Of a stretch of 61,903 nt of DNA, positions 1,622-18,653 are shown piece after piece. This DNA comes from Candidatus Methanoperedens sp. (GTDB lineage Archaea > Halobacteriota > Methanosarcinia > Methanosarcinales > Methanoperedenaceae), in the NCBI GenBank assembly GCA_026552975.1, contig JAPMTR010000071.1:1-61903 (forward strand), written 5' to 3'. Below the pieces are notes generated by a model. That model had not been told where the DNA came from. It ran no database searches and saw only the letters and a program-made list of their open reading frames with translations. Position numbers and translations under genes: made by a program. Numbering within the stretch: position 1 is the first letter of the stretch; every line of letters starts with the position of its first letter.

Positions 1622-2159
1622 AAAAACACATATTGGCAATAGTTCAATTGCTATAGGCGTATCCGGTCTCATGATCCTTGATTTCTTTTCGCCATTTGGA
1701 TATTCCATAAAATCATCAGATTTTAAGAGCAATGGAGAGCGGATTTATTTCACTGCCACCTCTGATTCAGGCAATCCAATAATTGCATCTACGGCACAGA
1801 TGACAATGCACGGTGGTATGTTGAGCTGCGCCGAATGCCACGGAACTGACGGAAAAGGGGGAACTGGAAGAATGATGATGTGGTCATTTGAAGCGCCAGA
1901 CATCAGATACTCAACACTTACAGCAGCACATGATGAAGAGCAAACCTACACGGATGACCTTATCAAACGTGCCATAACAAAAGGCATTGATTCCAGTGGA
2001 AAGCGCCTTGAGCTACCCATGCCGGTATGGCAAATGTCCGAAGTAGATTTCAACGACCTTCTTGATTTTCTTAAAACCTTAAAACCCGCTTATCTCGGGA
2101 TCAGCATCTGGATTTGTAGGGATCCATTCCTTCCCATTCCACTCCTTTTTGTCACTTGA
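1618..2159 (+). pseudogene. monohaem cytochrome c, frameshifted in the signal peptide
   Basis: A periplasmic class-I-like cytochrome c with one haem site, CAECH, at about 1827-1841, and a Met-rich C-terminal part (PMPVWQM) that could supply the axial methionine. The ATG at 1618 overlaps the SHOCT stop and starts a plausible signal peptide (MKKHILAIV), but that frame stops at TAG 1654-1656. The rest (IAIGVSGLMILDFF) continues in the frame of an ATG at 1671. One lost base near 1646-1650 joins them into a normal signal peptide. The fold should end near LLDFLKTLK (about 2085); the residues to 2159 read antisense through the terminase fragment, so the 3' end lies at the element junction. Confidence 0.7.
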
Positions 2160-2822
2160 GAACCAGATCTCTTCAAAGAACGAACCCTTATCCTTTGGCG
2201 TCCCTGCACAGAATATCTGTCCTGGCGGCAGGTTCACGACCTCCTTGAATACCTCAAATGCTTCTCTTGTCCAGTCCTGCATCTCATCTGCAAATCCATA
2301 ATTAACGTGAGGACCTCTTAAGCTGTTTCCTGTAACCCAGGCACCGCTTGCGAGATACTTTGACCCATTAGCAATATCGATCTCAGACTCTGTATTCTTT
2401 CCCTGAGAGATCAATGGCAGCAGCATCTTATCCTTGCTTTCAGTGAACCTTGGACGGATATGCTCTTTCGTCACGCGCCACGCCTGTTTATCTCGAGGCG
2501 CAGCGACCATTGCCCCTGAATAAGAGTTGGTGATGAGCTTATGGGTGAGAATACTGGCGATGGTCGTGGTCTTGGTCATGCTCCTTGCCCAGAGGAGTAC
2601 CACTATCCTTGCATCGTCTTGAAAGACCTGTCTCACATACGGGAAATCGTCAAACTTCATCGGCTTCCCGCGCATGGTGAAGAGCTTCTCGGAAAAAAGT
2701 ACCCCGTCTTCCTGGAGCTTCCTGTAATAATCTCGTTCCTTATCCTGCTTCTTTGAATCTTTCTCGCGAAGCTTCATTGTCTCTTTTGCCTGCTTCTCCT
2801 GCCTTTTACCAATCGAAGCCAT
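2079..2822 (-). CDS. phage terminase large subunit, ATPase half only
   Basis: The 247 residues match the N-terminal ATPase domain of a terminase that packages viral DNA. A basic, charged N-terminus is followed by a P-loop-like segment at 79-87 (ARSMTKTTT, with T where the usual motif has G), a Walker B at 176-181 (GFADEM) and the coupling strand FCAGTPKDKGSFFEEIW at about 204-221. The C-terminal nuclease domain, normally another 200 or more residues, is absent: the frame ends where the cytochrome c 3' end begins. Together with the integrase fragment this marks a dead provirus. Confidence 0.75.
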   Translation of the reverse strand: MASIGKRQEKQAKETMKLREKDSKKQDKERDYYRKLQEDGVLFSEKLFTMRGKPMKFDDFPYVRQVFQDDARIVVLLWARSMTKTTTIASILTHKLITNSYSGAMVAAPRDKQAWRVTKEHIRPRFTESKDKMLLPLISQGKNTESEIDIANGSKYLASGAWVTGNSLRGPHVNYGFADEMQDWTREAFEVFKEVVNLPPGQIFCAGTPKDKGSFFEEIWFSSDKKEWNGKEWIPTNPDADPEISGF

Positions 2823-2825
2823 ACT

Positions 2826-3083
2826 TTAATTCCTGAAACTTTGAGGGGTTCTTTCATCTTCAACCAGCAAAGTCCTGTCATCTTTCCATCTCAAAATGCC
2901 AGTTACAAAAATATACCACAGAGCAATGTTCAAAGGAAGAAGTCCCCATGAACCTGTCGTGACGATAAATGCAAACCAGAGAAACTGACTGAAAATACCT
3001 ACATAAAGTCCTGATTTAGCCTTCCTTGACAGAAGATACATCTGAATGATAGTAACAACGCTGATAACGAGGTCAAGGATCAT
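2826..3083 (-). CDS. small membrane protein, PnuC-like
   Basis: An 85-residue protein with three hydrophobic segments (about 1-18, 25-43, 48-63) and a charged tail. The pattern (LLSRKAKSGLYVGIFSQFLWFAF) resembles short PnuC-like proteins common in phages. The start at 3083 is chosen because AAGGGTG lies seven bases upstream and the ATG overlaps the stop of the preceding gene (ATGA). It sits just before the terminase fragment. Function is unknown. Confidence 0.55.
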   Translation of the reverse strand: MILDLVISVVTIIQMYLLSRKAKSGLYVGIFSQFLWFAFIVTTGSWGLLPLNIALWYIFVTGILRWKDDRTLLVEDERTPQSFRN

Positions 3084-4497: not shown

Positions 4498-5472
4498 TTA
4501 TGTTCGCCTCATATGTTCACAATTACCAGCCACGATCTTCTCAAGATGACCCTCAGCAGTTTCAACAATGAGCGCCCCCTCGTTATCCACGCCTATTGCT
4601 TCGCCATATATCGTTCGCGCCTGTGCGGTTATCTTTACCCATTGTCCGATAGTTGCTGACATATTCCTCCACTCTTCCAGGATATGAGAGAATCCATCTT
4701 CCTTGAATTTCATGTAAAGAGATTCAAACTCTTCCAATAACTTCTGGACAAACTCAACACGATTGATTTTATGACCCACTTCTTTTTCAAGGGAAGTTGA
4801 ATAATCCCTGAACTCACCGGGAAATGCTCCTGTATCCACATTGGCATCAATGCCTATCCCTACAATGAGATAATCAATAACATCAACTTCAGCCCCAATC
4901 TCTGTAAGAATGCCGCTAACTTTTTTCCCGTTGATAATTATATCATTAGGCCATTTTATTTTTGCTGGAAGTCCAAGATCCTGCATGGTCTTTGCGACCG
5001 AAACACCTGCAAGCAGTGTTATTCTTGGGGCATAAACAGGTTCAATTCCTGGTTTTAAAATTATGGACAGCCATATTCCACCTTCCGGTGATATCCATTT
5101 GTGCCCGAGTCGGCCCCTGCCTGCGGTCTGTAATTCTGCAATTACAATAGTACCCTCATTAACTGAGGTTGCGATTTCACGGGCTATGATATTAGTACTT
5201 TCTGTCTCTTTAAAATACTTTATATCTTTTCCAAATACTTTTGTCTTTAATCCCGCTTTTATTTCACCTGGCGTCAGTGCATCTGGTGTATCATTCAGTG
5301 AATAACCAATATGAGTTGATGAATCGATCATATATCCCTCATCCTTTAACACTTTGATATGTTTCCATATTGCGGTCCTTGAAACTGAAAGTTCGCTTGC
5401 AAGCTGTTCCCCGGAAACATGTTTTCCTTTATTCTTAACAAGTTTTTCAAGAACCTTATCTTTAGTGGTCAT
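4498..5472 (-). CDS. birA: BirA: biotin-protein ligase with DNA-binding domain
   Basis: The 324-residue bifunctional form: an N-terminal winged helix (about 5-60, [22 protein letters not shown]), a biotinyl-AMP ligase core with the GRGRLG motif at 118-123 and KWPNDI near 175, and a small C-terminal domain (from about 275). It activates biotin and attaches it to a carrier lysine. The start codon overlaps the pycA stop (ATGA), so it is the third gene of pycB-pycA-birA. The only biotin acceptor seen here is PycB, its likely substrate. The DNA-binding domain suggests it may also repress transcription in response to biotin. Confidence 0.95.
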
Positions 5473-6953
5473 TTAGCCCCGACAATTTTTGCATTCTGGA
5501 TGTAAGTTCCAACAGCTGATGTTATTGCTGCAACTTTTTTGTCATCCGCGACAAGGGCTGATGCTAATGTTGCGCCTTTTTCCTTTTCGGCCTCGATTAT
5601 CTTCTCAACTTCTTTTATTATATTGTGATCATCAATAAAATGCGTTGTAAGCTCACCCCGCTTAAAATATTCGTTATTCATCACGGCTTTATGGAAGGGA
5701 ATATTCGTTGTTACGCCAACGATTATGTATTCATATAATGCGCGTTTCATCCTGGCAATTGCTTCGTCCCTGTCCTTTCCCCAGACCGTAAGTTTTGAGA
5801 TGAGCGAATCATAAAATGGAGTTATGGTAAATCCTGTGTGCACACCGCTGTCCACGCGAACGCCAGGGCCACCTGATGAACGATATCTTCTTAACTTCCC
5901 CGGAGATGGTGTAAAATTATTAAGCGGATCTTCTGCATTGAGGCGGCATTCAATGGCCCACCCTCTTTGCTGGATATCTGATTGTTTATAACTTAACTTT
6001 TCACCGGATGCGATCCGGATCTGCTCTTTGGCAAGATCGACCCCGGTCACGATCTCTGTGATCGGGTGTTCGACCTGAAGCCTTGTGTTCATTTCCAGGA
6101 AAAAATACTCTCCTTTTGAATAGAGGAACTCGATCGTCCCGGCATTCGTATAATTAATAGCAGCGGCCGCTTTTACCGCATCCGAACCCATGCGCTCCCG
6201 CAATTCAGTCGTCATTATGGGGGATGGAGATTCTTCGATCAGCTTCTGGTGCCTTCGCTGGATAGAACACTCTCGGTCCCCCACGTGGATTATATTGCCA
6301 TAATTATCTGCAAGGATCTGGAATTCAATATGTCGCGGCATTTCCAGGTATTTTTCGATAAATACCGTTGCATCCCCGAACGACGATTTTGCAACCCTCT
6401 GGGTGGATTCAATGGTTTCGCGAAGTTCTTCTGTTTTGCGCACTACCTTCATACCAATACCTCCGCCTCCAGCTGATGCCTTTACAATAACAGGGTATCC
6501 AATACTTTCCGCGACCTTGACTGCTTCATCAAAGTCACTTATTCCACTCTCACTTCCAGGTATGACCGGTATCCCTGCGGATTTCATTGTCTTTTTGGCT
6601 GCGATCTTGCTTCCCACACTTTTGATGGCATGGCTTGAAGGGCCTATGAAAATAATTCCTTCCTTTTCACACCGGTCCGCAAATAATTCATTTTCCGAAA
6701 GAAATCCATAACCCGGATGGATAGCCTCAGCGCCAGATCTATGCGCCACATCGATTATTTTATCCATATCAAGGTAGCTCTGGGCAGCAGGTGCGGGACC
6801 TATCGGAAACGCTTCGTCTGCATACTTGGCAAAAAGTGCGTTCTTATCCACTTCGGAATACACTGCCACTGATTTCACATCAAGCTCCCTGCATGCACGC
6901 ATGACGCGAATAGCTATTTCACTGCGGTTAGCAATGAGAATTTTTTTGAACAT
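5469..6953 (-). CDS. pycA: pyruvate carboxylase subunit A (biotin carboxylase)
   Basis: This 494-residue ATP-grasp enzyme carboxylates the biotin of PycB using ATP and bicarbonate. It shows the N-terminal biotin carboxylase fold ([19 protein letters not shown]), the glycine-rich ATP loop GGGGIGMK near 162-169, and the [14 protein letters not shown] active-site segment near 287-300. The two-subunit enzyme makes oxaloacetate for biosynthesis in methanogens and relatives. It starts three bases after the pycB stop. Fully intact. Confidence 0.95.
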
Positions 6954-6956
6954 GTT

Positions 6957-8672
6957 TTATCCTACAACCATAAGCACATCACCTGCACTTACGGTGCTCC
7001 CTTCTTTAACGTAAAGCTCTTTCACGATACCTCCATGTGGGGCATGTATATTATTTTCCATTTTCATAGCTTCAAGAACAAGCACAGTATCGCCTTTTGA
7101 AACCTGGTCTCCCTTCTTGACCTTTAATTTGAGCACCATTCCCTGCATGCTTGCAGCGATTGCGCCGTCTGTAACTTTTGGCTTTCCCTGTTCGACAGAG
7201 CGAACGGACATAGCGCCTCCTGCTGAAATGATCTTTACATTGAATAAATCACCATCAACTTCGACCTTGAACTCCGAAGGCAAAGGCTCAACTGCTTTAC
7301 TGTTATTTGGTTTTGGAGCTTCAAGCACCTCTTCCCTGGTTTCACCGCGCAGGAATTTAGGCGCTATGGCAGGGTATAGGGCATACGTGAGAATATCCTC
7401 TGGTTTTTTAACAATTCCCAGATCCTGTGCTTCTTTTGTGACCTTATCAAGTTCAGGAGGCAAGAGATCCGCCGGACGGCATGTTATTTGTTTTTCGTCC
7501 CCCAGCACTTTTTTAACTATTTCTTTGCTGACCGGGGCAGGAGTTCGCCCGTAAAGCCCTTTTACATAATCTTTCACTTCTTTCGGGATGACTTTGTAAC
7601 GCTCACCCATCAATACATTAAGGACAGCCTGTGTGCCAACAATCTGGCTTGTGGGTGTGACAAGAGGCGGATAACCCAGTTCTTCGCGCACTCTTGGCAT
7701 CTCGGCAAGTACTTCCTCATATTTATCCAGCGCATTTTGCTCTTTTAGCTGGGAGACAAGATTTGAGAGCATACCCCCAGGTATCTGATATTTCAGGACG
7801 TTCGTATCTATCCTTTCTGATATCGGGTCAAGGATTCCCCTGTATTTTTCTTTAATTTCCTCGAAATATTTCTTTATCTCTGTGAGAAGTATCAGATCAA
7901 GACCGGTATCGTACGGCGTCCCGCGAAGGGCAGCTACAGTTGTTTCTGTTGGCGGTTGCGAAGTGCCCCAGGCGAATGGAGAAAAAGCAGTATCCAGTAC
8001 ATCAATTCCGGCCTGGCAGGCATAAAGATAGCTCATGGGAGCCATTCCACTCGTGCAGTGGCTGTGAAGATCGATCGGGATACTTATTTCTTCTTTTAAT
8101 GCGCGGACAAGGTCATACGCATTCTGGGGTGAAATAAGTCCAGCCATATCTTTTATGCACAGGGAATCGCATCCCATTTCTTCGAGTTCTTTTGCCATTT
8201 TGACATATATTGGAACGGTATGCACCGGGCTGATGGTATAACAAACAGTTCCCTGCACATGTGCGCCGACAAGCTTTGCGGTCTTGATTGAGACTTCCAT
8301 GTTCCTGACATCATTCACGGCATCAAATATCCTGAAAATATCGATACCAGTTGCTGCCGCATGTTCCACGAATTTTACTACAATATCATCTGAATAGTGC
8401 CTGTAACCTACAAGATTCTGGCCGCGAAGGAGCATCTGAAGCGGCGTTTTTTTAATAGTCTTCTTAAGAGCCCGAAGCCTGTCCCAGGGATCTTCATTCA
8501 GATACCTGATCGATGAGTCAAATGTCGCCCCGCCCCACACTTCGAGTGAATAGAAGCCAACGTCATCCATCTTTTCGGCAATCGGGAGCATATCCCTTGT
8601 ACGCATGCGTGTCGCAATAAGTGATTGATGTGCGTCTCGAAGGGTCGTATCGGTTAGTTTTACTGGTGCCAT
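6957..8672 (-). CDS. pycB: pyruvate carboxylase subunit B (carboxyltransferase and biotin carrier)
   Basis: A 571-residue protein with an HMGL-like TIM barrel (DTTLRDAHQSL at about 7-17, metal ligands in DLHSHCTSGM), a conserved PYC/OADA region, and a C-terminal biotinyl domain with EAMKMEN, the biotin-bearing lysine being K537. It moves the carboxyl group from biotin to pyruvate. A sodium-pumping decarboxylase would need membrane subunits, and none are present; pairing with PycA shows it is pyruvate carboxylase. First gene of the operon. Confidence 0.94.
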   Translation of the reverse strand: MAPVKLTDTTLRDAHQSLIATRMRTRDMLPIAEKMDDVGFYSLEVWGGATFDSSIRYLNEDPWDRLRALKKTIKKTPLQMLLRGQNLVGYRHYSDDIVVKFVEHAAATGIDIFRIFDAVNDVRNMEVSIKTAKLVGAHVQGTVCYTISPVHTVPIYVKMAKELEEMGCDSLCIKDMAGLISPQNAYDLVRALKEEISIPIDLHSHCTSGMAPMSYLYACQAGIDVLDTAFSPFAWGTSQPPTETTVAALRGTPYDTGLDLILLTEIKKYFEEIKEKYRGILDPISERIDTNVLKYQIPGGMLSNLVSQLKEQNALDKYEEVLAEMPRVREELGYPPLVTPTSQIVGTQAVLNVLMGERYKVIPKEVKDYVKGLYGRTPAPVSKEIVKKVLGDEKQITCRPADLLPPELDKVTKEAQDLGIVKKPEDILTYALYPAIAPKFLRGETREEVLEAPKPNNSKAVEPLPSEFKVEVDGDLFNVKIISAGGAMSVRSVEQGKPKVTDGAIAASMQGMVLKLKVKKGDQVSKGDTVLVLEAMKMENNIHAPHGGIVKELYVKEGSTVSAGDVLMVVG

Positions 8673-8821
8673 GTCTATGTGGGCTTAATTGGCTACAGTG
8701 TTATTTAATTTATGGTCTTTTTCAATTGGAGGGTGGTATTGTCTAATAAATTGTCGGAAGATTTATTATGTATAATCATGTGATATACATTGATTTCCAG
8801 GGTGGGAATCGGGAGACAATT

Positions 8822-9661
8822 ATGAAAAACAATTTGTTAGTGACTGCTATAGTCATAATTTTAATATTGGGAGCAGGCGTGTGGCTGCTTTCAAACAATA
8901 ACGATAAAAATAAAAACGAGGAACTTCCATCATCACTTGACCGGTATTACCAGAGTCAACCGCCTGTATATCTCGTAAGCATGTTCGAACTTGGAGCAGC
9001 TATGATGGGTATAGGCGTGAATGTGCAACAAAAAGACATGATAAATGCTAAAAAATCATACGACGATTTTTCGCTGAAATTTAAAGAGAGTTCCGATATG
9101 GTACCTGAATGGAAAAAATACTATGATCAGGCCGCTGTCGAAAAAATTGGCGCTTCCCTTGATTCAGATGATGTGCCAGGGGTTTTTGAGAACATTGGAA
9201 AAGTGGGCGAAGCCTGTGTACAATGTCACAAGGAAAAAATGGTCCCGATATGGAACAAATATAACTGGAAAGATTTCAGTAAATTGACAATGAAAACCCC
9301 AAATCCTGAAGAACCTGTATTGCCATTTCCTGCTGCAAAGATAAAGTATCTTGCTTTTGGTTTTGATGGTATCGGAGTAAATATCAAGAACAATAACCAA
9401 AAAGGTGCAAAGGAAAGCTTTGGCCTGTTTAAGACCATGTTCGATAATTTGAATAGTACCTGTTCTTCCTGCCATGTATCTCCAAGGAACTACTATGTAA
9501 GCTCAGATGTCCAGGCTATGATCGATATGATGGGCGAAAAGATCAATTCAGGGAATCTGTCTGAAGCTGAGGGACTGAGAATGGGCATAGGCATGGAAAG
9601 CTGCTACAATTGTCATGTGTTGCATATGCCAGCGCAGTATGCAAAGGTGACATCGAAATAA
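8822..9661 (+). CDS. membrane-anchored trihaem cytochrome c
   Basis: A 279-residue secreted cytochrome with an N-terminal signal anchor (about 5-23) and three haem sites: CVQCH (132-136), CSSCH (214-218) and CYNCH (261-265). Two internal repeats are visible: each starts with a helix containing FELGAAMMGIGVNV or LAFGFDGIGVNI, continues through a helical hairpin (AKKSYDDFSLKFKE, AKESFGLFKTMFD) and ends with a haem site, as in cytochrome c'-like four-helix bundles. The start at 8822 is chosen for GGGAG just upstream and the signal anchor it opens; an in-frame ATG at 8768 adds an unlikely leader. Probably an extracytoplasmic electron carrier. Confidence 0.85.
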   Translation: MKNNLLVTAIVIILILGAGVWLLSNNNDKNKNEELPSSLDRYYQSQPPVYLVSMFELGAAMMGIGVNVQQKDMINAKKSYDDFSLKFKESSDMVPEWKKYYDQAAVEKIGASLDSDDVPGVFENIGKVGEACVQCHKEKMVPIWNKYNWKDFSKLTMKTPNPEEPVLPFPAAKIKYLAFGFDGIGVNIKNNNQKGAKESFGLFKTMFDNLNSTCSSCHVSPRNYYVSSDVQAMIDMMGEKINSGNLSEAEGLRMGIGMESCYNCHVLHMPAQYAKVTSK

Positions 9662-10657: not shown

Positions 10658-11499
10658 TGAAAGTCATTCTGGAACTGATCCGTTACAAGAACTGTGCAAT
10701 GGCAGGCCTTGCTGCCGTAATTGGGGCTGCCATCGCATACAGCGCCACGCCGGGTGACCCGGTCTGGATGGGGTTTATTTTCATCACCGTTTTTATCATC
10801 ACCGGCGCCGGGAATGCTTTAAATGATTATTTTGATGCGAATATCGATGCCATCAACCGCCCCGGCCGGCCAATTCCTTCTGGAAGGATATCAAAAGAAT
10901 CTGCATATAATTTATCAATTTCAATGTTCTTCCTGGGTTTAATTGTCTCCTTTTTCATAGGCTCTAATGGTATTCCCCGCTTGATTGCAGGTTTCAACGC
11001 AATTCTCTTGCTGTACTATGCTAAATCTTTAAAAAGAAAAGTTGTTGTCGGGAACTTGACCGTAAGTTACCTTACTGGTTCCACATTCCTATTCGGGGGA
11101 GCAGCTTACGGGGGAAAAGGCATCCAGGTGACATTAATACTCTTTTTCCTGTCGATGCTTGCCACATTTGCGCGTGAGATCGTAAAGACCATAGAGGATA
11201 TTGAGGGGGACAGGTTAGATGGCGCTTCTACCATACCCATAAAAATAGGGGAAACAAAAGCGACATATATTGCATGCGCATTTGGAGTTCTGGCAGTTCT
11301 TCTGAGCCCGCTACCATATTTATTGGACTTTTTCAATGAATATTACCTCATTGTCGTGGGGGTCGCAGATCTTGTTTTTCTTTATGCCATGGTAAGGATA
11401 TTAAGAAAAGACCCAGCTGCGTCTTCAAAATATTTTAAAGTAGCTATGTTCCTGGCTATGCTGGCTTTTATTGCAGGAAGCATCCTGAACAGTATCTAG
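10654..11499 (+). CDS. digeranylgeranylglyceryl phosphate synthase (UbiA family)
   Basis: A 281-residue membrane prenyltransferase with about eight or nine helices and both UbiA aspartate motifs: NDYFDANIDAINRPGRP near 55-71 and the second at DIEGDRLDGAST near 178-189. The archaeal form adds the second geranylgeranyl chain to geranylgeranylglyceryl phosphate in the making of ether lipids. Family membership is clear; the exact substrate rests on similarity to archaeal members. Coupled to nadA by a four-base overlap. ATG at 10657 is an alternative start. Confidence 0.88.
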   Translation: MMKVILELIRYKNCAMAGLAAVIGAAIAYSATPGDPVWMGFIFITVFIITGAGNALNDYFDANIDAINRPGRPIPSGRISKESAYNLSISMFFLGLIVSFFIGSNGIPRLIAGFNAILLLYYAKSLKRKVVVGNLTVSYLTGSTFLFGGAAYGGKGIQVTLILFFLSMLATFAREIVKTIEDIEGDRLDGASTIPIKIGETKATYIACAFGVLAVLLSPLPYLLDFFNEYYLIVVGVADLVFLYAMVRILRKDPAASSKYFKVAMFLAMLAFIAGSILNSI

Positions 11500-11529
11500 A
11501 TAATATCTGAAGCCCTTAATAAAATTAAA

Positions 11530-11991
11530 TCATATCTCAAAAGGGATCTTCTCAAAATTATTGATCTTGAGATCCTTAAACTCAACCCCACCTTTAACCC
11601 CTGTTATCTCAACGCCCTCAAACTCGCCTGCTGCGCATAACACATCCTGTTCGGGGTGTGTTCCTGGTTTAATAGTGCAACTAAGGTGTGTCCTATCCCC
11701 TGCTGAAACAACGATCTTCAGGCGTTTAGATGCCGGATGTTTCTTCGGGAGGACGATAAAAGGCGAGCCTACTTCCCGGATCATATAAAGGACACATTTC
11801 AAACCGTTTACTATGGTCTTATCTACTCCGAATCCCGATGCCACAAGAAGATCATCAGGCTCAAGAGCCAGAACTATTTCTTCGGTCTCAGTTTCAAGAA
11901 AAAATTGTTTATTTTCTCCTATTTTTATAATACCAAGGGTACCTTCTTTTCCCCTGACAAGGAGCATTTCATCATTTTTTAATTGGATCAT
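11530..11991 (-). CDS. conserved hypothetical protein, end of chaperone cluster
   Basis: A 153-residue, mostly beta-strand protein (GTLGIIKIGENKQFFLETETEEIVLAL, then ADRTHL-like and GVEITGVKGGVEF strands) without signal peptide or membrane helix. Family not recognised. Its ATG shares a base with the stop of the zinc-ribbon gene (TAATG), so the two are translationally coupled. It is the last gene of the run that starts with the GrpE/Hsp70 genes. Confidence 0.7.
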   Translation of the reverse strand: MIQLKNDEMLLVRGKEGTLGIIKIGENKQFFLETETEEIVLALEPDDLLVASGFGVDKTIVNGLKCVLYMIREVGSPFIVLPKKHPASKRLKIVVSAGDRTHLSCTIKPGTHPEQDVLCAAGEFEGVEITGVKGGVEFKDLKINNFEKIPFEI

Positions 11992-12152
11992 TATTCGTTG
12001 CTAATAAGGAATACTTTTTTTGACATACAAGAGGGACAGATCACTTTTTTACCTATGCCCTTGAACTCGTTCTTACAATCCTCACATTTGAATAATTGTG
12101 ATTCAAATTCAGGGATCTCCATACTTCCGAATGTATCACCGACACTGCACAT
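11991..12152 (-). CDS. 53-residue zinc-ribbon protein
   Basis: A short gene preceded by a near-perfect ribosome binding site (GGAGGTGAAAATAC). Two CxxC knuckles, CEDC (23-26) and CPSC (39-42), are spaced as in a one-metal zinc ribbon and followed by a beta hairpin. It overlaps the next gene by one base. Such small ribbons bind nucleic acid or a protein partner; here the partner could be a chaperone component, which is inference from position only. Confidence 0.75.
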   Translation of the reverse strand: MCSVGDTFGSMEIPEFESQLFKCEDCKNEFKGIGKKVICPSCMSKKVFLISNE

Positions 12153-12206
12153 GTATTTTCACCTCCGCAGTAATTATTCATGTTTAATCCTGTTCTTATA
12201 TTAATC

Positions 12207-12698
12207 TTATGGAAGGTATTTCTTAATATATCGTTCATAAACAACTGGATCAACGGTTTTTCCTGCCCAGAATTTTATCAGCTCCCCTTTATCGATCAGG
12301 GCTGTAAGAGGCAGTTTTTTTTCTTCAGCGTCTTCCTGGAAGATTATCTGGTAAAGCGCGCCTTCCGGTCTGTCCTCAATTACCTCAAATAACTCTATAC
12401 TGCTGCCATATTTTTTTTCTATGGCATGGATATTTGGTTCATTGCCTTCGCATATCTTGCATCTATCTTCACGCATCCTGTCGCGCCTGATATTTAAGAA
12501 GACAGGACGATCCATTTCATTTATCTTCTCTACCACCCTGGATATATGAATATATTTTTCATCTACGAACTGGTCAATAAAATCCTTGAATTCCACTTCT
12601 GCCTCATTTTCAGTACATGAGTTCTTCCCTGCCAGTAACCCAATAAATTTTTGTCTGAAAACGCTTTTATGAGTCACAAGAAGATTATTGAGATTCAT
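12207..12698 (-). CDS. thioredoxin-like protein with CKIC motif
   Basis: A 163-residue protein. An N-terminal helical region (1-60) is followed by a thioredoxin-like fold: strand PVFLNIRRD (65-73), CKIC at 80-83 in the active-site position, helix, strand IELFEVIED, and a KKLPLTALID segment with the cis-Pro position at 130, then GELIKFWAG. The CxxC could do redox work or bind metal. It is coupled to the J-like gene by an ATGA overlap, which places it inside the chaperone operon. The fold call is from pattern only. Confidence 0.6.
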   Translation of the reverse strand: MNLNNLLVTHKSVFRQKFIGLLAGKNSCTENEAEVEFKDFIDQFVDEKYIHISRVVEKINEMDRPVFLNIRRDRMREDRCKICEGNEPNIHAIEKKYGSSIELFEVIEDRPEGALYQIIFQEDAEEKKLPLTALIDKGELIKFWAGKTVDPVVYERYIKKYLP

Positions 12699-13954
12699 AA
12701 GTTCATTTCCTTTCTTAATTTGTCAAAAATTCGCTCAAGGTCTTCAAAAGTTATCTGCGGTGGCGGTGATTTCTTCGGGCTCTTCTTTTGCTTACCCTTT
12801 CCTTTTTTCAGTTTCCCAAAAACACCTTTCTTTTCCACCTCTTCTTCTTCTTCAGAAACAATAAATTTCATAGCTGTGAATATATGACCTTTATCGAAAA
12901 CCCACATATAATCCGCCCTCTGTGATTCATTTTTTAGCACAGAATAGGCAAGATTGACAAGCGGTGTTTTTTCAAGTGGCCTGTATTTTTCCCGCAATAA
13001 CTTTTCAATCTCTTTCTTATCACCTGTTAGTGAACTCCGGTCAATACCAATAATTGAAAAAAAAGTTTCTTTATTCGGGGGCAGGTATTTCATCCAGTCC
13101 TGATTTGCATTAATTATTTCATTCATACGCCTTTGTTCTTTCATTGTATCTTCTAGATCAAGAGACATTAATATGATCTGTTCAAAGGACTTCCTATCAA
13201 TTTTTTCCCATTTTTTTTGTTTCCTGTTCCTCTGTTCATGATCCTGTCTTGATCCATATTTCCCTACAAAATACATCATGAAATCATAATCATCCCTTTT
13301 TTTCGGATCACCAAGGATAGTATCTATTTTTCTAAATAATTCTGACCCATTCTCGCATTTCCGTCTAATTTCCTCTATCGTTGCATCTTTTCCGGAGCCT
13401 ATTATTTCATACAGGCCTGGTGCTCCTAAAAGCTGGATCTCAAGGAATTTCATATATTTTGGCTGTATTTCACTCATCCTGGTGAATTCCTTGTTACACT
13501 TGAGATTTTCATTATGGTTATCAATCAACTCTTTTTTATCTGATGCTGACATGCATTTTGAATATTGCTCAAATAAAGAAAGCAGTTCATCATATTTTTT
13601 TTGTAAGTATTCATCAGTGAGTACATTATAAGCTTCTTCAATAAGAAATGACGTAAAATATGAAAATCGTGATTTTTTCGAATAAGCTTCTTCGATCTCT
13701 TCTTTCAAAGCTCCCCTGTGAACCCCCAGCACGCAATACCAGGTAGGAATACCCCCCAGCAGCGGCTCTACCCATTCTGGAAACTCATCCACAAAATGTT
13801 CAAACTTGATCATGGATCTCCCAAGCCTTTGCATATCCAGATGAAGGCTGGATACCTTCCAGTAAGGGTCATCATGAATGGATATTTCCGGTTCCAATTC
13901 AGATTTTTCTAGTTCTTCTGTTTTTTTTGGCTTATACTTATTCTTCTTGCTCAT
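12695..13954 (-). CDS. tandem J-like protein lacking HPD
   Basis: A 419-residue soluble protein in which a J-domain-like pattern appears three times: near 95-150 (TWYCVLGV, LKEEIEEAY, EEAYNVLTD, YLQKKYDELL), near 185-240 (LYEIIGSG, EEIRRKC, ILGDPKKRDDYDFM) and near 295-350 (FFSIIGID, KEIEKLLREKY, LAYSVLKNESQRADYM). The linkers between repeats are helical and charged. None has the HPD tripeptide needed to stimulate Hsp70, and the loop that should carry it is shortened. The N- and C-termini are charged. The start overlaps the Hsp70 gene by 17 bases. It probably binds the Hsp70 or its clients rather than acting as a classic J-protein; this is inferred. Confidence 0.6.
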   Translation of the reverse strand: MSKKNKYKPKKTEELEKSELEPEISIHDDPYWKVSSLHLDMQRLGRSMIKFEHFVDEFPEWVEPLLGGIPTWYCVLGVHRGALKEEIEEAYSKKSRFSYFTSFLIEEAYNVLTDEYLQKKYDELLSLFEQYSKCMSASDKKELIDNHNENLKCNKEFTRMSEIQPKYMKFLEIQLLGAPGLYEIIGSGKDATIEEIRRKCENGSELFRKIDTILGDPKKRDDYDFMMYFVGKYGSRQDHEQRNRKQKKWEKIDRKSFEQIILMSLDLEDTMKEQRRMNEIINANQDWMKYLPPNKETFFSIIGIDRSSLTGDKKEIEKLLREKYRPLEKTPLVNLAYSVLKNESQRADYMWVFDKGHIFTAMKFIVSEEEEEVEKKGVFGKLKKGKGKQKKSPKKSPPPQITFEDLERIFDKLRKEMNL

Positions 13955-15665
13955 TCTTTTGTCTTATTTCCAGTGTGCTGCCATGTGTGATCTTTGTTTT
14001 TGATATTTTATTCTTATCCTGAAGTTCAATATCGTCATAAAAGATGAGATCATTGTCACCCATTATTCCTATTTCCTTCAATTCTTTCTTTATGTCCAAG
14101 ATCGTCTGTGTTGGATTCAGGTAAAGTGTAAGAGTGTCTCGAGTTTCCATGTTTTCCACATTAACTTCAATACTTTCCATATCCAGCATTTTCTTCATGA
14201 ATTTGCTTTTTTCTTTCTTGGAAAGCCTGCTTCTTGCTTCCATTTTAACTGAACGCTTGCTGCCGGATATCTTTTCAATCGCAGTCACATGCAGTATCCC
14301 GAACTCTTTTCCAACCTCAAATGTCACATCCACCCTGTCGCTATGTGCGGGAAGAGGTTCAACATCTACCCAGAAATCCCCCAGGTGTTCACATTCTTCA
14401 GGAGTTTCGCCTTCGCCCTGGAATACATTAATGATCACTTCATCCGCAAAATCGCCGGCGTTAGTGAAGTTACGGGTTCTAGCTATTGGTATTTTAGTGT
14501 TGCGATCAAGGATCTTTATTATTGTCCCGTCCGCTACAAGAACCCCAAGTGAGCTTGAGATGACATCACTTATTTCGATATTCTTGATTTTGTTTAATTT
14601 TTCCTTCCCATATTCCATGGATGCAACCGCTGCTCCAAGTGCCACGGCTTCGTAGGGGTCACCTTTTAAGGGTTCTTTTCCGAAATACTGCGTTACAAAT
14701 TCGCGCACTGCTGGAATAAGCGTCGTGCCGCCCACGAGCAATATATCATCGATCTCATTCTTATCGAGAGACGCATCCTCAAGAGCCTGTTCGATTGGTT
14801 TTATTGTGCGCTCGATCAGGTCAGTAATCATCCGGTTCAATTCTGTCCTGGTCAAAACCATACTAAATGGTGGTTTGTTCGCAGCCACAAAAGGAATGGT
14901 GATGGTTGTGCTTTCTGAAGTTGACAGGGCGATCTTTGCTTCTTCAGACGCTTCGCGTAAAGTAGCATGAAGCGCAAGGTCTTTCTTAACATCAATACCC
15001 ATTTGTTCGTATAATCTCTTGCTTACATGCTCTTCTATTCGCACATCAATGTCATCACCGCCCAATTTGTGTTCTCCTGCACTTGAATCAACATCAAAGA
15101 AACCTGATGAAACCGAAAGAATAGAGACATCGAAAGTCCCGCCTCCGAAGTCATATACAAGCACCCGCGTGTCCCGGTCTTCCCTTATACCATAGGCAAG
15201 CGCCGCGGCTGTAGGCTCATTGATCAATCTCAGGATATTTATACCCGCGATCTCAGCAGCATCCTTGATGGCTTGCCTTTGCCCATCAGAATAATTGGCT
15301 GGAACTGAAACCACAGCTTCCGTGAATTTTTTCCCGATCTGTTTTTCAGCATCATCCGCCAGTTTCTTAAAAATATGAGCTCCGATATATTCAGGAGGGA
15401 ATTTATGACGGCCGATCTTTTTCTTAAAATCTGTTCCCATTTCCCTTTTTATCGACGATATGGTATTTTCCGGGTTTATGATCTGGTTGTGCTTTGCGAT
15501 TTCACCCACCAAGACTTCATCCTCATTCTTAAAATAAACAATCGAAGGAGTGATCTTTTTGCCTTCATTGTTCTCGATCATTACAGGCTCATCAAGCAGG
15601 ATGTATGCCATTTTTGAGTTCGTTGTTCCAAAGTCAATACCAAGTATATTTTTGTCCACTGTCAT
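13938..15665 (-). CDS. Hsp70 with a C-terminal ubiquitin-like domain
   Basis: The 575-residue protein has a complete Hsp70 ATPase domain (about 1-375: IDFGTTNSKMAYI, VYDFGGGTFDVSIL, NEPTAAALAYG, LLVGGTTLIPAVREF) and a beta substrate-binding domain (about 385-480). The helical lid of normal DnaK (600-640 residues) is missing. Residues 498-570 instead form a beta-grasp pattern close to ubiquitin: TLTLYLNPTQTILDIKKELKE, then NDLIFYDDIELQDKNKIS, then HGSTLEIRQ. There is no terminal diglycine, so it cannot be conjugated like ubiquitin. GAGGTAG touches the ATG; a GTG at 15659 is better spaced. Operon: grpE-like, this gene, J-like, thioredoxin-like. Confidence 0.88.
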   Translation of the reverse strand: MTVDKNILGIDFGTTNSKMAYILLDEPVMIENNEGKKITPSIVYFKNEDEVLVGEIAKHNQIINPENTISSIKREMGTDFKKKIGRHKFPPEYIGAHIFKKLADDAEKQIGKKFTEAVVSVPANYSDGQRQAIKDAAEIAGINILRLINEPTAAALAYGIREDRDTRVLVYDFGGGTFDVSILSVSSGFFDVDSSAGEHKLGGDDIDVRIEEHVSKRLYEQMGIDVKKDLALHATLREASEEAKIALSTSESTTITIPFVAANKPPFSMVLTRTELNRMITDLIERTIKPIEQALEDASLDKNEIDDILLVGGTTLIPAVREFVTQYFGKEPLKGDPYEAVALGAAVASMEYGKEKLNKIKNIEISDVISSSLGVLVADGTIIKILDRNTKIPIARTRNFTNAGDFADEVIINVFQGEGETPEECEHLGDFWVDVEPLPAHSDRVDVTFEVGKEFGILHVTAIEKISGSKRSVKMEARSRLSKKEKSKFMKKMLDMESIEVNVENMETRDTLTLYLNPTQTILDIKKELKEIGIMGDNDLIFYDDIELQDKNKISKTKITHGSTLEIRQKNEQEE

Positions 15666-15678
15666 CTACCTCATCTTT

Positions 15679-16293
15679 TTAGTGCTCTTTTGTCTCGATC
15701 TTTTCTTTGTTTTTTTGATCAAGTTCATCCATGTCCTTCTTCATTTCTAACAAATGCGCCCGTTCTGGTTTTAGGATCCTCAATATATAGCCCCATAATC
15801 CGGGTTTTACAGTCTGCCTCAAGATTGGATTCTTTGAGATTAATACTTCAGCCGGACGAACCACGTTATTCTCCATCAGATAACCTTTTCTTACAACTTT
15901 GAAAACAGAATTCTCTGGATATTTTGAACCAGATTCAAGTCCAATTGCAGTATGTTTCTGCTCAACGAATTTATCACCAGGCATTGGTTCTATAACAGTT
16001 AATCTCATAGCAGAGATTATCTGTTTACAAACTGCGTCAATATTCTTAGCAAGATTTCCCATATACTCCTTCATCATTTCACATGAATTTGTATTTTCAG
16101 AAACGACCATACGATCAAGCGAGTCTACCGCCACCAGCATCCTTTTTGAAATGTCAAATCTTATATCAAGCTTTTTTTTCTCTTCATTTTTCTTATTGGT
16201 CTCAATATAATCTTTAAATTCCTGCTTCAGTTTATTGTATTGACTCTCAAACCACTCTGCCTTTTTCTTGACATCCTCAATATTCTCTTCCAT
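15679..16293 (-). CDS. GrpE-like nucleotide exchange factor
   Basis: The 204-residue protein starts with a long charged coiled coil (1-50, KKKAEWFESQYNKLKQEF), then the GrpE four-helix part, then the diagnostic C-terminal segment: EPMPGDKFVEQKHTAIG followed by VFKVVRKGYLMENNVVRPAEVLIS (about 105-155). A tail of about 50 charged residues is longer than usual. GrpE releases ADP from Hsp70. It is the first gene of the operon, 13 bases before the Hsp70 gene, and so is its presumed exchange factor. Confidence 0.85.
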   Translation of the reverse strand: MEENIEDVKKKAEWFESQYNKLKQEFKDYIETNKKNEEKKKLDIRFDISKRMLVAVDSLDRMVVSENTNSCEMMKEYMGNLAKNIDAVCKQIISAMRLTVIEPMPGDKFVEQKHTAIGLESGSKYPENSVFKVVRKGYLMENNVVRPAEVLISKNPILRQTVKPGLWGYILRILKPERAHLLEMKKDMDELDQKNKEKIETKEH

Positions 16294-16405: not shown

Positions 16406-17842
16406 CTACTTCTTATCTGCTGCCGGAGCCTTTTCAGCCTCTTTGGCCGGGGCTTTTGGCGCTGCTGGTGTCGCAGGAGCTTTTGGTGCTTCTGCCTTTG
16501 GTGCAGGGGCCGCTGGTGCAGCAGCTGCCGGAGCTGCCACTTTGGGCGGGATCGTCTGTGTCCTGAACAGGTCGCTTATAGATTCCTTTGGAGCACCTGG
16601 TGCTGGTGCCAGGACATCTGTGCTCAATCCCATAAGATGAGCGGTCAGTACCACAAGATCGTCAACACTCATATCCATTTTAAGTTCATCTCTGCCATCG
16701 ATCAGGTTACGCCTGCAGAAAGGACATGTGCTTATCAAAGCTTGCGCCCCTGTATCCTGTGCATCCTTCATCCTGCCTGTGGCTACACCCAGTGCAAGAT
16801 CAGGAATACCTGCTTTTACGCCTCCGCCTGCGCCGCAACATCGCTGTTCTTTTCGGTTGCGTTTCATTTCAATAAGTTTGACCCCGGGCATGCTCTTTAT
16901 CACTTTCCTGGGTTCTTCGAACACACCAACGTGTCTTCCAAGATGGCACGGATCATGATAGGTCACGGTCTTGTTGAGACTCTTTTCCCACTTTATCTTC
17001 CCTGCATCAAGCTGCTCTGCAAGGAACTGGGACATGTGAATAGCTTCAAATGGCAATGCTTTTCCATATGCTCGCGGCCAATCGATCTTGGCTGCCCTGA
17101 AACATCCTGCGCATGCAAATATTACCCTCTTTGCACCTCTTGCCTTAAGCGCTTCAACATTGTGGATAGCAACTTTCCTGGGAGTATCATTAATATGCTG
17201 CTGTCCGGTCCTTATAAGAGCTGACCCGCAGCACCATTCTTCCTCACCCAGCGCCATGAAAGGAACATTGAGTTTGTTCAATATCCTTGCTGTGCTTACT
17301 CCAAGCACCTGCTGGTTGTATCCTGCAGTACATCCTATGAAGTATGCAATATCTGATTTTTCAGCGATCTTGATGTCAGGTGTCATCCATGCAAGTCGGT
17401 CTTTCTGCTGCTTCATATAAGGGTTGTGGCCTTCTTCTATGAGCTTGGGGAAAAGACTCTGTTTGCCGTATGGGCCTGTCCCGTACTTAACAAGGTTAGC
17501 CCTTGTTGACTCCCAGAGTTCGATCGTATTTATCCCTGCAGGGCATACGGTTCCGCACATACCGCATGTGGTGCAGTTGTAAAGATCATCCGTGAATTTC
17601 TTTATCTCTTCCTGGGGGATCTTTTCAGGGCCCAGGAGCCTGGCCTTAAGACCAAAGCTCTTGTTCATGAAATCCTTCCATTTCTGGATCTTATCCCTTG
17701 GCTCTATGTCCTGGTTCTTATCTCTTGCATCATATGTCGGGCAGTATTTGACACATTCTCCGCACCTTGTGCATGCATCAAATTCCATTAACTGGGCCGC
17801 AGTGAAATTGACTGTGTTTATCGAGGGTTTTTCTTTTGCCAT
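16406..17842 (-). CDS. hdrD: HdrD: CoB-CoM heterodisulfide reductase catalytic subunit
   Basis: This 478-residue subunit reduces or forms the CoM-S-S-CoB disulfide. Two ferredoxin clusters are bound by C24/27/30/34 and C90/93/96/100. Two CCG domains follow: C171, C204-C205, C244, C247 and C299, C335-C336, C373, C376, which hold the noncubane clusters. The start at 17842 is chosen because GGAGGCGA lies before it; an ATG five codons earlier overlaps that site. Residues 411-478 form an Ala/Pro/Lys-rich tail not typical of HdrD. It follows hdrE in one operon. Confidence 0.92.
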
Positions 17843-17843
17843 G

Positions 17844-18653
17844 TTATTCGCCTCCATGGTTCACAAGAATGGTCAATGGTGCTGTTATCATATGGAAATA
17901 CTTGCTAAAGGGTAAATATGCGACGCAGAACAACAGTGTGAATACTTCATGGAACATTACTGTAATATTATTGAAGAATCCAGGATTATCTTTCATATAA
18001 TCCGATATTTCGGCTCTCTGAATATTATCAGCCTCACGGATAGTCTGTGCGTAAAATCCCGTGATCACTACAACGAGCAAACCGATTATCAAAATCCAGT
18101 CGATATCGGCGTTTCGTGCCTGTACATCTTTGCCTGTTGAGAATAGTCTTCTTGCTATAGCGATAACTATACCCAATACAAGCATCCATCCGAAAATCTC
18201 ATTTGGAAGTTCAAGCGTTTTCCATGCACCAATAAAGAAACTGGAATCATATGGTGCGACGAAGAACGGCCCATAGAACTCTGCTGCTGCTGCAACCATC
18301 GTCAATATCAATAACCCTACCCAGCCCCAGAATATCAAGATATGCATGAACCATTCAAGCTTCCTGCGCCTGAATGTTCTTCTCTGGAATGCAACATCCA
18401 GGATCAATACTTCAAGTGCATGTCCTATACCCTTTGAAAAGATGCTGCTTATTATCATTTTAAGGGCGCCGAATGCTCCGTAAGGTTTTGTTGCACCTTC
18501 CGGGATAGCTCGTCCCCATTTGTCCAGTTGTACATACATTCCTACAATGAACAGGATTATGGATATTATCGCTGTAATAACCATTATTCTCCAGTCTATG
18601 AATAGTGTATCAAATACTGTTTTGCCTAATATTGTAAGGCCTTCTGTCGCCAT
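17844..18653 (-). CDS. hdrE: HdrE: membrane cytochrome b subunit of heterodisulfide reductase
   Basis: A 269-residue integral membrane protein with five or six helices (about 20-42, 105-125, 150-168, 185-205, 235-260) in the nitrate reductase gamma fold. Histidines in the hydrophobic segments (GHALEV, MHILIF, FHEVFT) can ligate haem b. It links methanophenazine to HdrD at the membrane. TAGGAGGATAAT precedes the ATG. The stop lies one base before the hdrD start. HdrDE is typical of cytochrome-containing Methanosarcinales. Confidence 0.9.

Follow-up and report, generated by a model that had tools for sequence, protein, structure and literature searches.

A gene for an Hsp70 whose helical lid appears to be replaced by a ubiquitin-like (Ubl) domain was identified in a 61,903-nucleotide stretch of Candidatus Methanoperedens sp. 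DNA (contig JAPMTR010000071.1 of assembly GCA_026552975.1; the whole stretch is called the window below). The protein, named Hsp70-Ubl here, has 575 aa and is encoded at 13938..15665 on the minus strand, as are the other window genes described here, and its domain architecture, based on the open reading frame (ORF) and on domain matches, is near certain. It stands between a gene for a GrpE-type nucleotide exchange factor and a gene for a partner with three J-like domains and no histidine-proline-aspartate (HPD) motif, and these three genes form a cassette which recurs in other archaea. The preliminary description of this DNA had the middle gene right, while the GrpE, the HPD-less triple J-like partner and the altered interdomain linker had escaped it. 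Hsp70 is among life's most conserved machines, and its lid, its linker and the HPD trigger are regarded as fixed; a natural family which retains the ATPase and the peptide site with all three altered allows a direct test of which parts the Hsp70 cycle cannot do without, and a small protein set is available for reconstitution. The family also shows a genuine ubiquitin fold built into a chaperone of archaea which help to control methane release. No description of an archaeal Hsp70 with a Ubl was found in the available parts of the open-access literature (preprints, subscription papers and InterPro architectures lay outside this scope), which agrees with the earlier remark that no such layout had been described. 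The cassette appears to be a novel form of a very ancient machine.

The nucleotide-binding (ATPase) domain covered about residues 1-360 (14586..15665) with its catalytic residues retained, as judged from PF00012 and the residue table. It was followed by the linker IEISDV (residues 363-368, 14562..14579), which takes the place of VLLLDV in the residue comparison, and by the beta substrate-binding domain (about residues 371-482, 14220..14555), recognised by sequence matches. Residues 7-527 matched the Pfam HSP70 family (PF00012) with an E-value of 7.8e-146, and the best relatives in PDB by sequence were DnaK structures, with the alignment stopping at about residue 492 (491-493). The assignment of residues 1-480 to an Hsp70 ATPase and beta substrate domain, made earlier from the sequence alone, was borne out by these matches; a beta-sandwich substrate domain is thus predicted, and the helical lid beyond helix A is missing from the sequence, since the alignment with the DnaK structures goes no further. 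A short helix at residues 483-494 (14184..14219) is probably what remains of lid helix A; it took positions 7-18 of the AlphaFold2 model of residues 477-575, with a predicted local distance difference test (pLDDT) score of about 60. Against the NCBI DnaK equivalog TIGR02350 the protein reached 485.6 bits, far below the cut-off of 822.55. Hsp70-Ubl is a member of the Hsp70 superfamily which differs from canonical DnaK in helices B-E, in the VLLL linker and in the equivalog score.

The Ubl domain was located at about residues 498-570 (13956..14174) by Pfam, AlphaFold2 and Foldseek. Pfam ubiquitin (PF00240) matched residues 501-569 of the whole protein with an E-value of 2.8e-5 and 24.2 bits, against a cut-off of 25.4, and the last 99 residues alone gave 29.1 bits (E 9e-7), above this cut-off. 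In the AlphaFold2 model the C-terminal part folded as a beta-grasp in ubiquitin order, with pLDDT above 90 in the Ubl and no lid helices, and Foldseek matched it to ubiquitin at an E-value of about 1e-6, so the ubiquitin-like order proposed for residues 498-570 and the loss of the lid were both upheld. When the model was compared with viral proteins by Foldseek, viral ubiquitins were among the matches, which added nothing beyond the fold. A diglycine end was found in 0 of 39 Hsp70-Ubl sequences, as had been noted for the window protein, and therefore the usual conjugation is excluded. Ubiquitin is bound by its receptors at the surface patch L8-I44-H68. The Ubl had S, E or D at the place of L8 in 34/39 sequences, F at that of I44 in 31/39 and E at that of H68 in 33/39 (V70 lay outside the alignment), so that this receptor-binding patch is changed.

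Residues were counted in E. coli DnaK numbering, with gapped sequences excluded from each count. Those of the ATPase were conserved in Hsp70-Ubl (K70 in 35/35; R151, E171, T173 and T199 in 37/37 each), and so were those for docking in the ATP state (N170 in 37/37; D326, D393 and N415 in 39/39 each). The linker, VLLLD in DnaK, had the consensus (I/V)-E-I-S-D: L390 was changed to E in 38/39 and to D in 1/39, and L391 to I and L392 to S in all 39. At position R167 (n=37) there were 22 R, 12 G, 2 A and 1 K. E206 was changed to S or T in 37/37, and position 215, which is T in E. coli and V in the archaeal DnaKs, was F in 37/37. Linker leucines and R167 were present in all four canonical DnaK controls, namely E. 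coli, the DnaK of the window's own genome and two from its order; six had been intended, and L006 and L007 were gapped at the compared positions and hence not usable. The peptide pocket was largely kept (position 426 Y/F in 39/39, 436 V in 33/39, 438 I/V in 39/39), and the arch residues 404 and 429 were highly variable. According to the available passages of PMC3861046, the VLLL linker of DnaK is essential in vivo, its R167A mutant loses interdomain coupling, and the open DnaK structure holds the contacts D393-N170 and N415-D326; those of PMC9346034 state that the HPD of J domains touches the Hsp70 linker. The residues for ATP chemistry and for the docking contacts are thus retained, and what reads HPD is altered, completely on the partner's side and to some extent in the Hsp70. 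With hydrophobic residues at alternate positions, I/V-E-I-S-D might form a beta strand of which one face is buried.

The partner gene (12695..13954) encodes 419 aa with J-like domains from about residues 70, 180 and 297, placed by PF00226, AlphaFold2, VIA-align and site alignment. PF00226 matched the partner of the window and of 18/18 relatives, and VIA-align gave J-domain matches at residues 65-135 and 181-226; the third domain, at about residue 297, is suggested by the sequence pattern alone. Foldseek on the whole AlphaFold2 model returned no match with an E-value below 0.001, so that support for the J assignment comes from Pfam and VIA-align. HPD was found in 0/38 partners at each of the three sites; at the first, H was found in 0/38, Y-P-x in 29/38 and Y-P-D in 17/38. 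The GrpE-type factor (204 aa, 15679..16293) matched PF01025 with 85.5 bits in the window protein, against a cut-off of 25.8.

The cassette was compared in 39 loci from 38 genomes, with seven loci on short contigs excluded and 4/39 Hsp70 ORFs being pieces. The triple J-like gene lay downstream of Hsp70-Ubl on the same strand in 39/39 loci, at a gap of 25 bases or less in 35/39 and often overlapping, and its product had 368-450 residues in 38 loci, with one truncated by a contig end. GrpE lay upstream in 36/39; two of the other three loci reach a contig edge, and in G314 none was found. A frameshift restoring the lid just downstream, which the preliminary description had left as a possibility, or an assembly artefact, could be ruled out, as the 39 loci share the layout and the Hsp70-Ubl gene ends inside the next gene. 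The two profiles travelled together: in a sample spread evenly over the phylum, 26/392 genomes matched the Ubl profile and 26/392 the J profile, with 25 in common. The unshared Ubl match was a 31-codon remnant (G402), and the unshared J match was a lone triple J-like gene (L156 of G442, family f37, 1982-3082) on a 3.7-kb contig without Hsp70 or GrpE.

Some loci had peculiarities of their own. In family f3 the GrpE (L046, L049, L051) had about 500 aa with a long coiled-coil-like extension, and its tail S-P-[SF]-T-V-S-T-x-F-W was similar in all three examined. Two whole copies of the cassette were present on separate contigs of G392 (L118, L119). An in-frame TAG interrupted otherwise intact-looking Hsp70-Ubl genes in two genomes of the family related by its methane enzyme to anaerobic methanotrophic archaea of group 1 (ANME-1-like), L110 (G378, 11293-13047) and L116 (G361, 5060-6830); reading it as pyrrolysine was rejected, as a PylS match above cut-off was found in 0/8 genomes, including these two. 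L157 (1557-1649) and L158 (5459-5551), both on the minus strand of ANME-1-like genomes, held 31-residue remnants of the Ubl end and are probably decayed cassettes. L004 (G004, family f2, 7689-9173, minus strand) encodes a second Hsp70 of 494 aa with 33% identity to the window protein; its length leaves no room for a complete lid, and it gave no Ubl match.

The distribution was surveyed among genomes of the window's own phylum, where the order of Hsp70 followed by Ubl recurs in many archaeal genomes, in line with the domain search suggested beforehand. Among the matches listed, the layout occurred in 19/185 genomes of the order, the window's genome included: 7/34 in the window's family f1, 5/17 in f2, 6/17 in f3, 1/6 in f4 and 0/111 in f5, while G041 (f3) had just an N-terminal Hsp70 piece at a contig end. 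Family f10 had it in 20/51 genomes (21/51 counting the remnant of G402), and the class of G392 in 6/149, all in family f16. A scan of contigs found the closest relative as the sole match, because exact peptide patterns were used. Each family was placed through the McrA of a single genome. That of f10 (G353) was nearest to 3sqg, which we take to be the ANME-1 enzyme (966 bits, 674 for the next); that of f3 (G029) was nearest to the ANME-2c enzyme 9qm5 (1295.7 vs 840.6 bits); and that of f4 (G010, related to the carrier G009) was nearest to the ethyl-coenzyme M (ethyl-CoM) reductase 7b1s (1348.7 vs 532.3 bits). The McrA of f2 (G012) was nearest to 9qqt (1000 bits) and 9qr1 (996 bits), which would make f2 ANME-2a/b-like, and f16 (G392) had an ordinary methanogen-type enzyme, so that its class looks like methanogens. 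The carriers belong to ANME-1-like, ANME-2-like and ethane-oxidiser-like lineages, with a few that resemble methanogens, and in each of these groups the cassette is patchy.

A tree was built from four canonical DnaKs and 37 of the 39 Hsp70-Ubl sequences, without the two shortest, and in it the Hsp70-Ubl sequences grouped together with support 100/100. Its starred branches put f10 in at least two places and f1 in at least two places, and one f1 sequence grouped with two f10 sequences at 91/93, below the star level. As the tree splits both families, the cassette either was passed between lineages or underwent duplication with repeated loss. Canonical DnaK was found in 35/37 carrier genomes, that of G051 being a fragment, and the carriers without one were G055 and G009 (61% complete); therefore Hsp70-Ubl is normally an extra Hsp70.

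Outside the three genes the surroundings varied. The most common neighbour cluster occurred in 8/39 loci, in 5 of them no more than three ORFs from the cassette, and 5 of its 11 members carried an ABC-ATPase signature; all other clusters were found in at most 3 of 39 loci, and the flanking genes are not generally conserved. Genes for HdrD- and HdrE-like proteins lie just upstream of the cassette (16406-18653); a functional link to them was rejected as a general feature, for they are shared by the closest relative alone among the 39 loci. Downstream, a gene for a 163-aa protein of unknown family (12207..12698) has a 4-base overlap with the triple J-like gene. This protein, with a CxxC (CKIC at residue 80), had no Pfam match above cut-off and no NCBIfam match, and may be thioredoxin-like. 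It is probably outside the core cassette, because among the 39 loci it was found here and in the closest relative only.

Our preferred reading, put forward tentatively and with a little more doubt than belief, is that GrpE, Hsp70-Ubl and the triple J-like protein make up an accessory Hsp70 machine which has spread in part by horizontal transfer; its Ubl would act in docking or capping without covalent attachment, and its J-like partner as a scaffold instead of a classical activator. In the mechanism we infer, the ATPase domain would bind and split ATP and, while ATP is bound, dock onto the substrate domain, which is proposed because the catalytic residues are retained and so are the contact pairs N170/D393 and D326/N415; the beta substrate domain would bind extended peptide, and the cognate GrpE would reset the protein. 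Classical clamping of clients should be impossible with helices B-E gone. The Ubl directly follows what is left of helix A, at the place where lid helix B would begin, and could serve, as the preliminary description also supposed, as a docking element, here for the dedicated J-like partner or for a client complex; it may also shield the peptide cleft. The partner, for its part, would be mainly a scaffold or client adaptor tethering the Hsp70 and not the usual trigger of hydrolysis, which might be intrinsic, client-driven or set off by the ordinary DnaJ of the cell. The likeliest job would be that of a client-specific holding or assembly chaperone alongside ordinary DnaK.

A wider claim, about which our doubts clearly prevail, is that these proteins form an Hsp70 branch of a different logic, with a ubiquitin-fold lid, a linker-HPD-R167 switch that both sides have abandoned or rebuilt, and a pseudo-J protein with three heads in place of the classical activator; this branch would have had a single origin and have spread among methane- and alkane-oxidising archaea and some methanogens.

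Several observations weigh against the docking machine as described. The helix A remnant is of low confidence in the model, and an intramolecular cap over the peptide cleft would suit the position of the Ubl equally well. From the alternation in I/V-E-I-S, the linker could be altered yet fully working, and with R167 in 22/37 proteins and Y-P-D in 17/38 partners, some of the classical contact could persist. The cassette is dispensable, as most genomes of its families are without it (27/34 in f1), and since the flanking genes are not generally conserved, no client is indicated.

The strongest rival is a beta-grasp lid, where the Ubl would fold onto its own peptide cleft as an ATP-gated cap in place of the helical lid, with no outside partner. 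The start of the Ubl right after helix A, where helix B of DnaK begins, speaks for such a cap, as do the largely retained pocket positions 426, 436 and 438 and the tail past the last beta strand, which was near-constant at 106-118 residues in the 34/39 sequences measured. The variable arch residues 404 and 429 argue the other way, and a cap alone leaves the constant, dedicated HPD-less partner unexplained; we regard this reading as unlikely. A non-cycling scaffold Hsp70, ATP-bound in a tight fixed complex with its J-like partner in the manner of the lidless Ssz1/HSPA14, would agree with the loss of the helical lid past helix A, the altered linker, the HPD-less partner and the constant pairing; it is nevertheless quite improbable, given that K70, E171 and T199 are invariant where present and that a cognate GrpE in 36/39 loci is hard to explain without nucleotide exchange.

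A role as degradation adaptor, in which the Ubl would hand clients of the Hsp70 over to Cdc48 or the archaeal proteasome as with Bag1 and ubiquilin, has a precedent for its Ubl-plus-Hsp70 logic in Bag1, whose Ubl could interact with the 26S regulatory particle according to the available passages of PMC4753570, and a Ubl without diglycine would fit non-covalent action. The proteasome role is less likely because the patch read by receptors (L8, I44, H68) is not retained, and the lack of any generally conserved neighbour gene also counts against it. We know of no archaeal receptor for such a Ubl (none was searched for), which is a further point against this role, and we consider it distinctly improbable.

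That the cassette belongs to a conflict or defence system is extremely improbable: Hsp70-GrpE-DnaJ sets are known in bacterial GAP1-N2 GTPase conflict systems (available passages of PMC7159879) and the cassette is patchy, with a gene tree cutting across families as for a horizontally moved element, but PADLOC matched 0 of the four window genes and gave no excess near the cassette (33 families from 82 neighbour genes, 110 from 82 controls, a comparison of family totals and not of genes, with the first 25 families of each list examined), there was no match among 72,556 plasmid and 50,697 phage records, and none in viral contigs scanned with one short peptide pattern. The neighbours were 82 of a list of 100, which covered ORFs of 100-800 residues in loci other than L003 and from which 18 were removed by hand (short genes and genes of near-duplicate loci); the controls came from 14 contigs of carrier genomes, chosen by arbitrary number (20 picked, 6 without a usable gene). 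The genomic context gives a defence role no support.

Among known systems, the GAP1-N2 GTPase conflict systems likewise combine an Hsp70, a GrpE and a J-containing protein (DnaJ-FNIII), whereas they are GTPase-centred and mostly of actinobacteria and firmicutes, with no Ubl-bearing Hsp70 mentioned in the available passages of PMC7159879. Bag1, composed of a Ubl and a BAG domain, also links a Ubl to the Hsp70 cycle (available passages of PMC4753570 and PMC9346034); its Ubl is carried by the exchange factor, while here the Ubl is on the Hsp70 itself and without the usual surface patch. Canonical Hsp70 (DnaK; PF00012, TIGR02350) shares the ATPase and beta substrate domains, the catalytic and ATP-docking residues and the GrpE partner with Hsp70-Ubl, which differs in having a Ubl for the lid beyond helix A, a changed VLLLD linker and an equivalog score below cut-off. 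Ssz1 and HSPA14 are lidless Hsp70s of ribosome-associated complexes, stably paired with an HPD-keeping J protein and without a Ubl; the missing lid and the stable J pairing are common to both, and the Ubl and the HPD-less partner here stand against the ribosome role there. A J fold without HPD is shared with Pam16/Tim16 of mitochondrial import and other HPD-less J-like proteins, but Pam16/Tim16 has one J-like domain, whereas the partner of Hsp70-Ubl has three in tandem.

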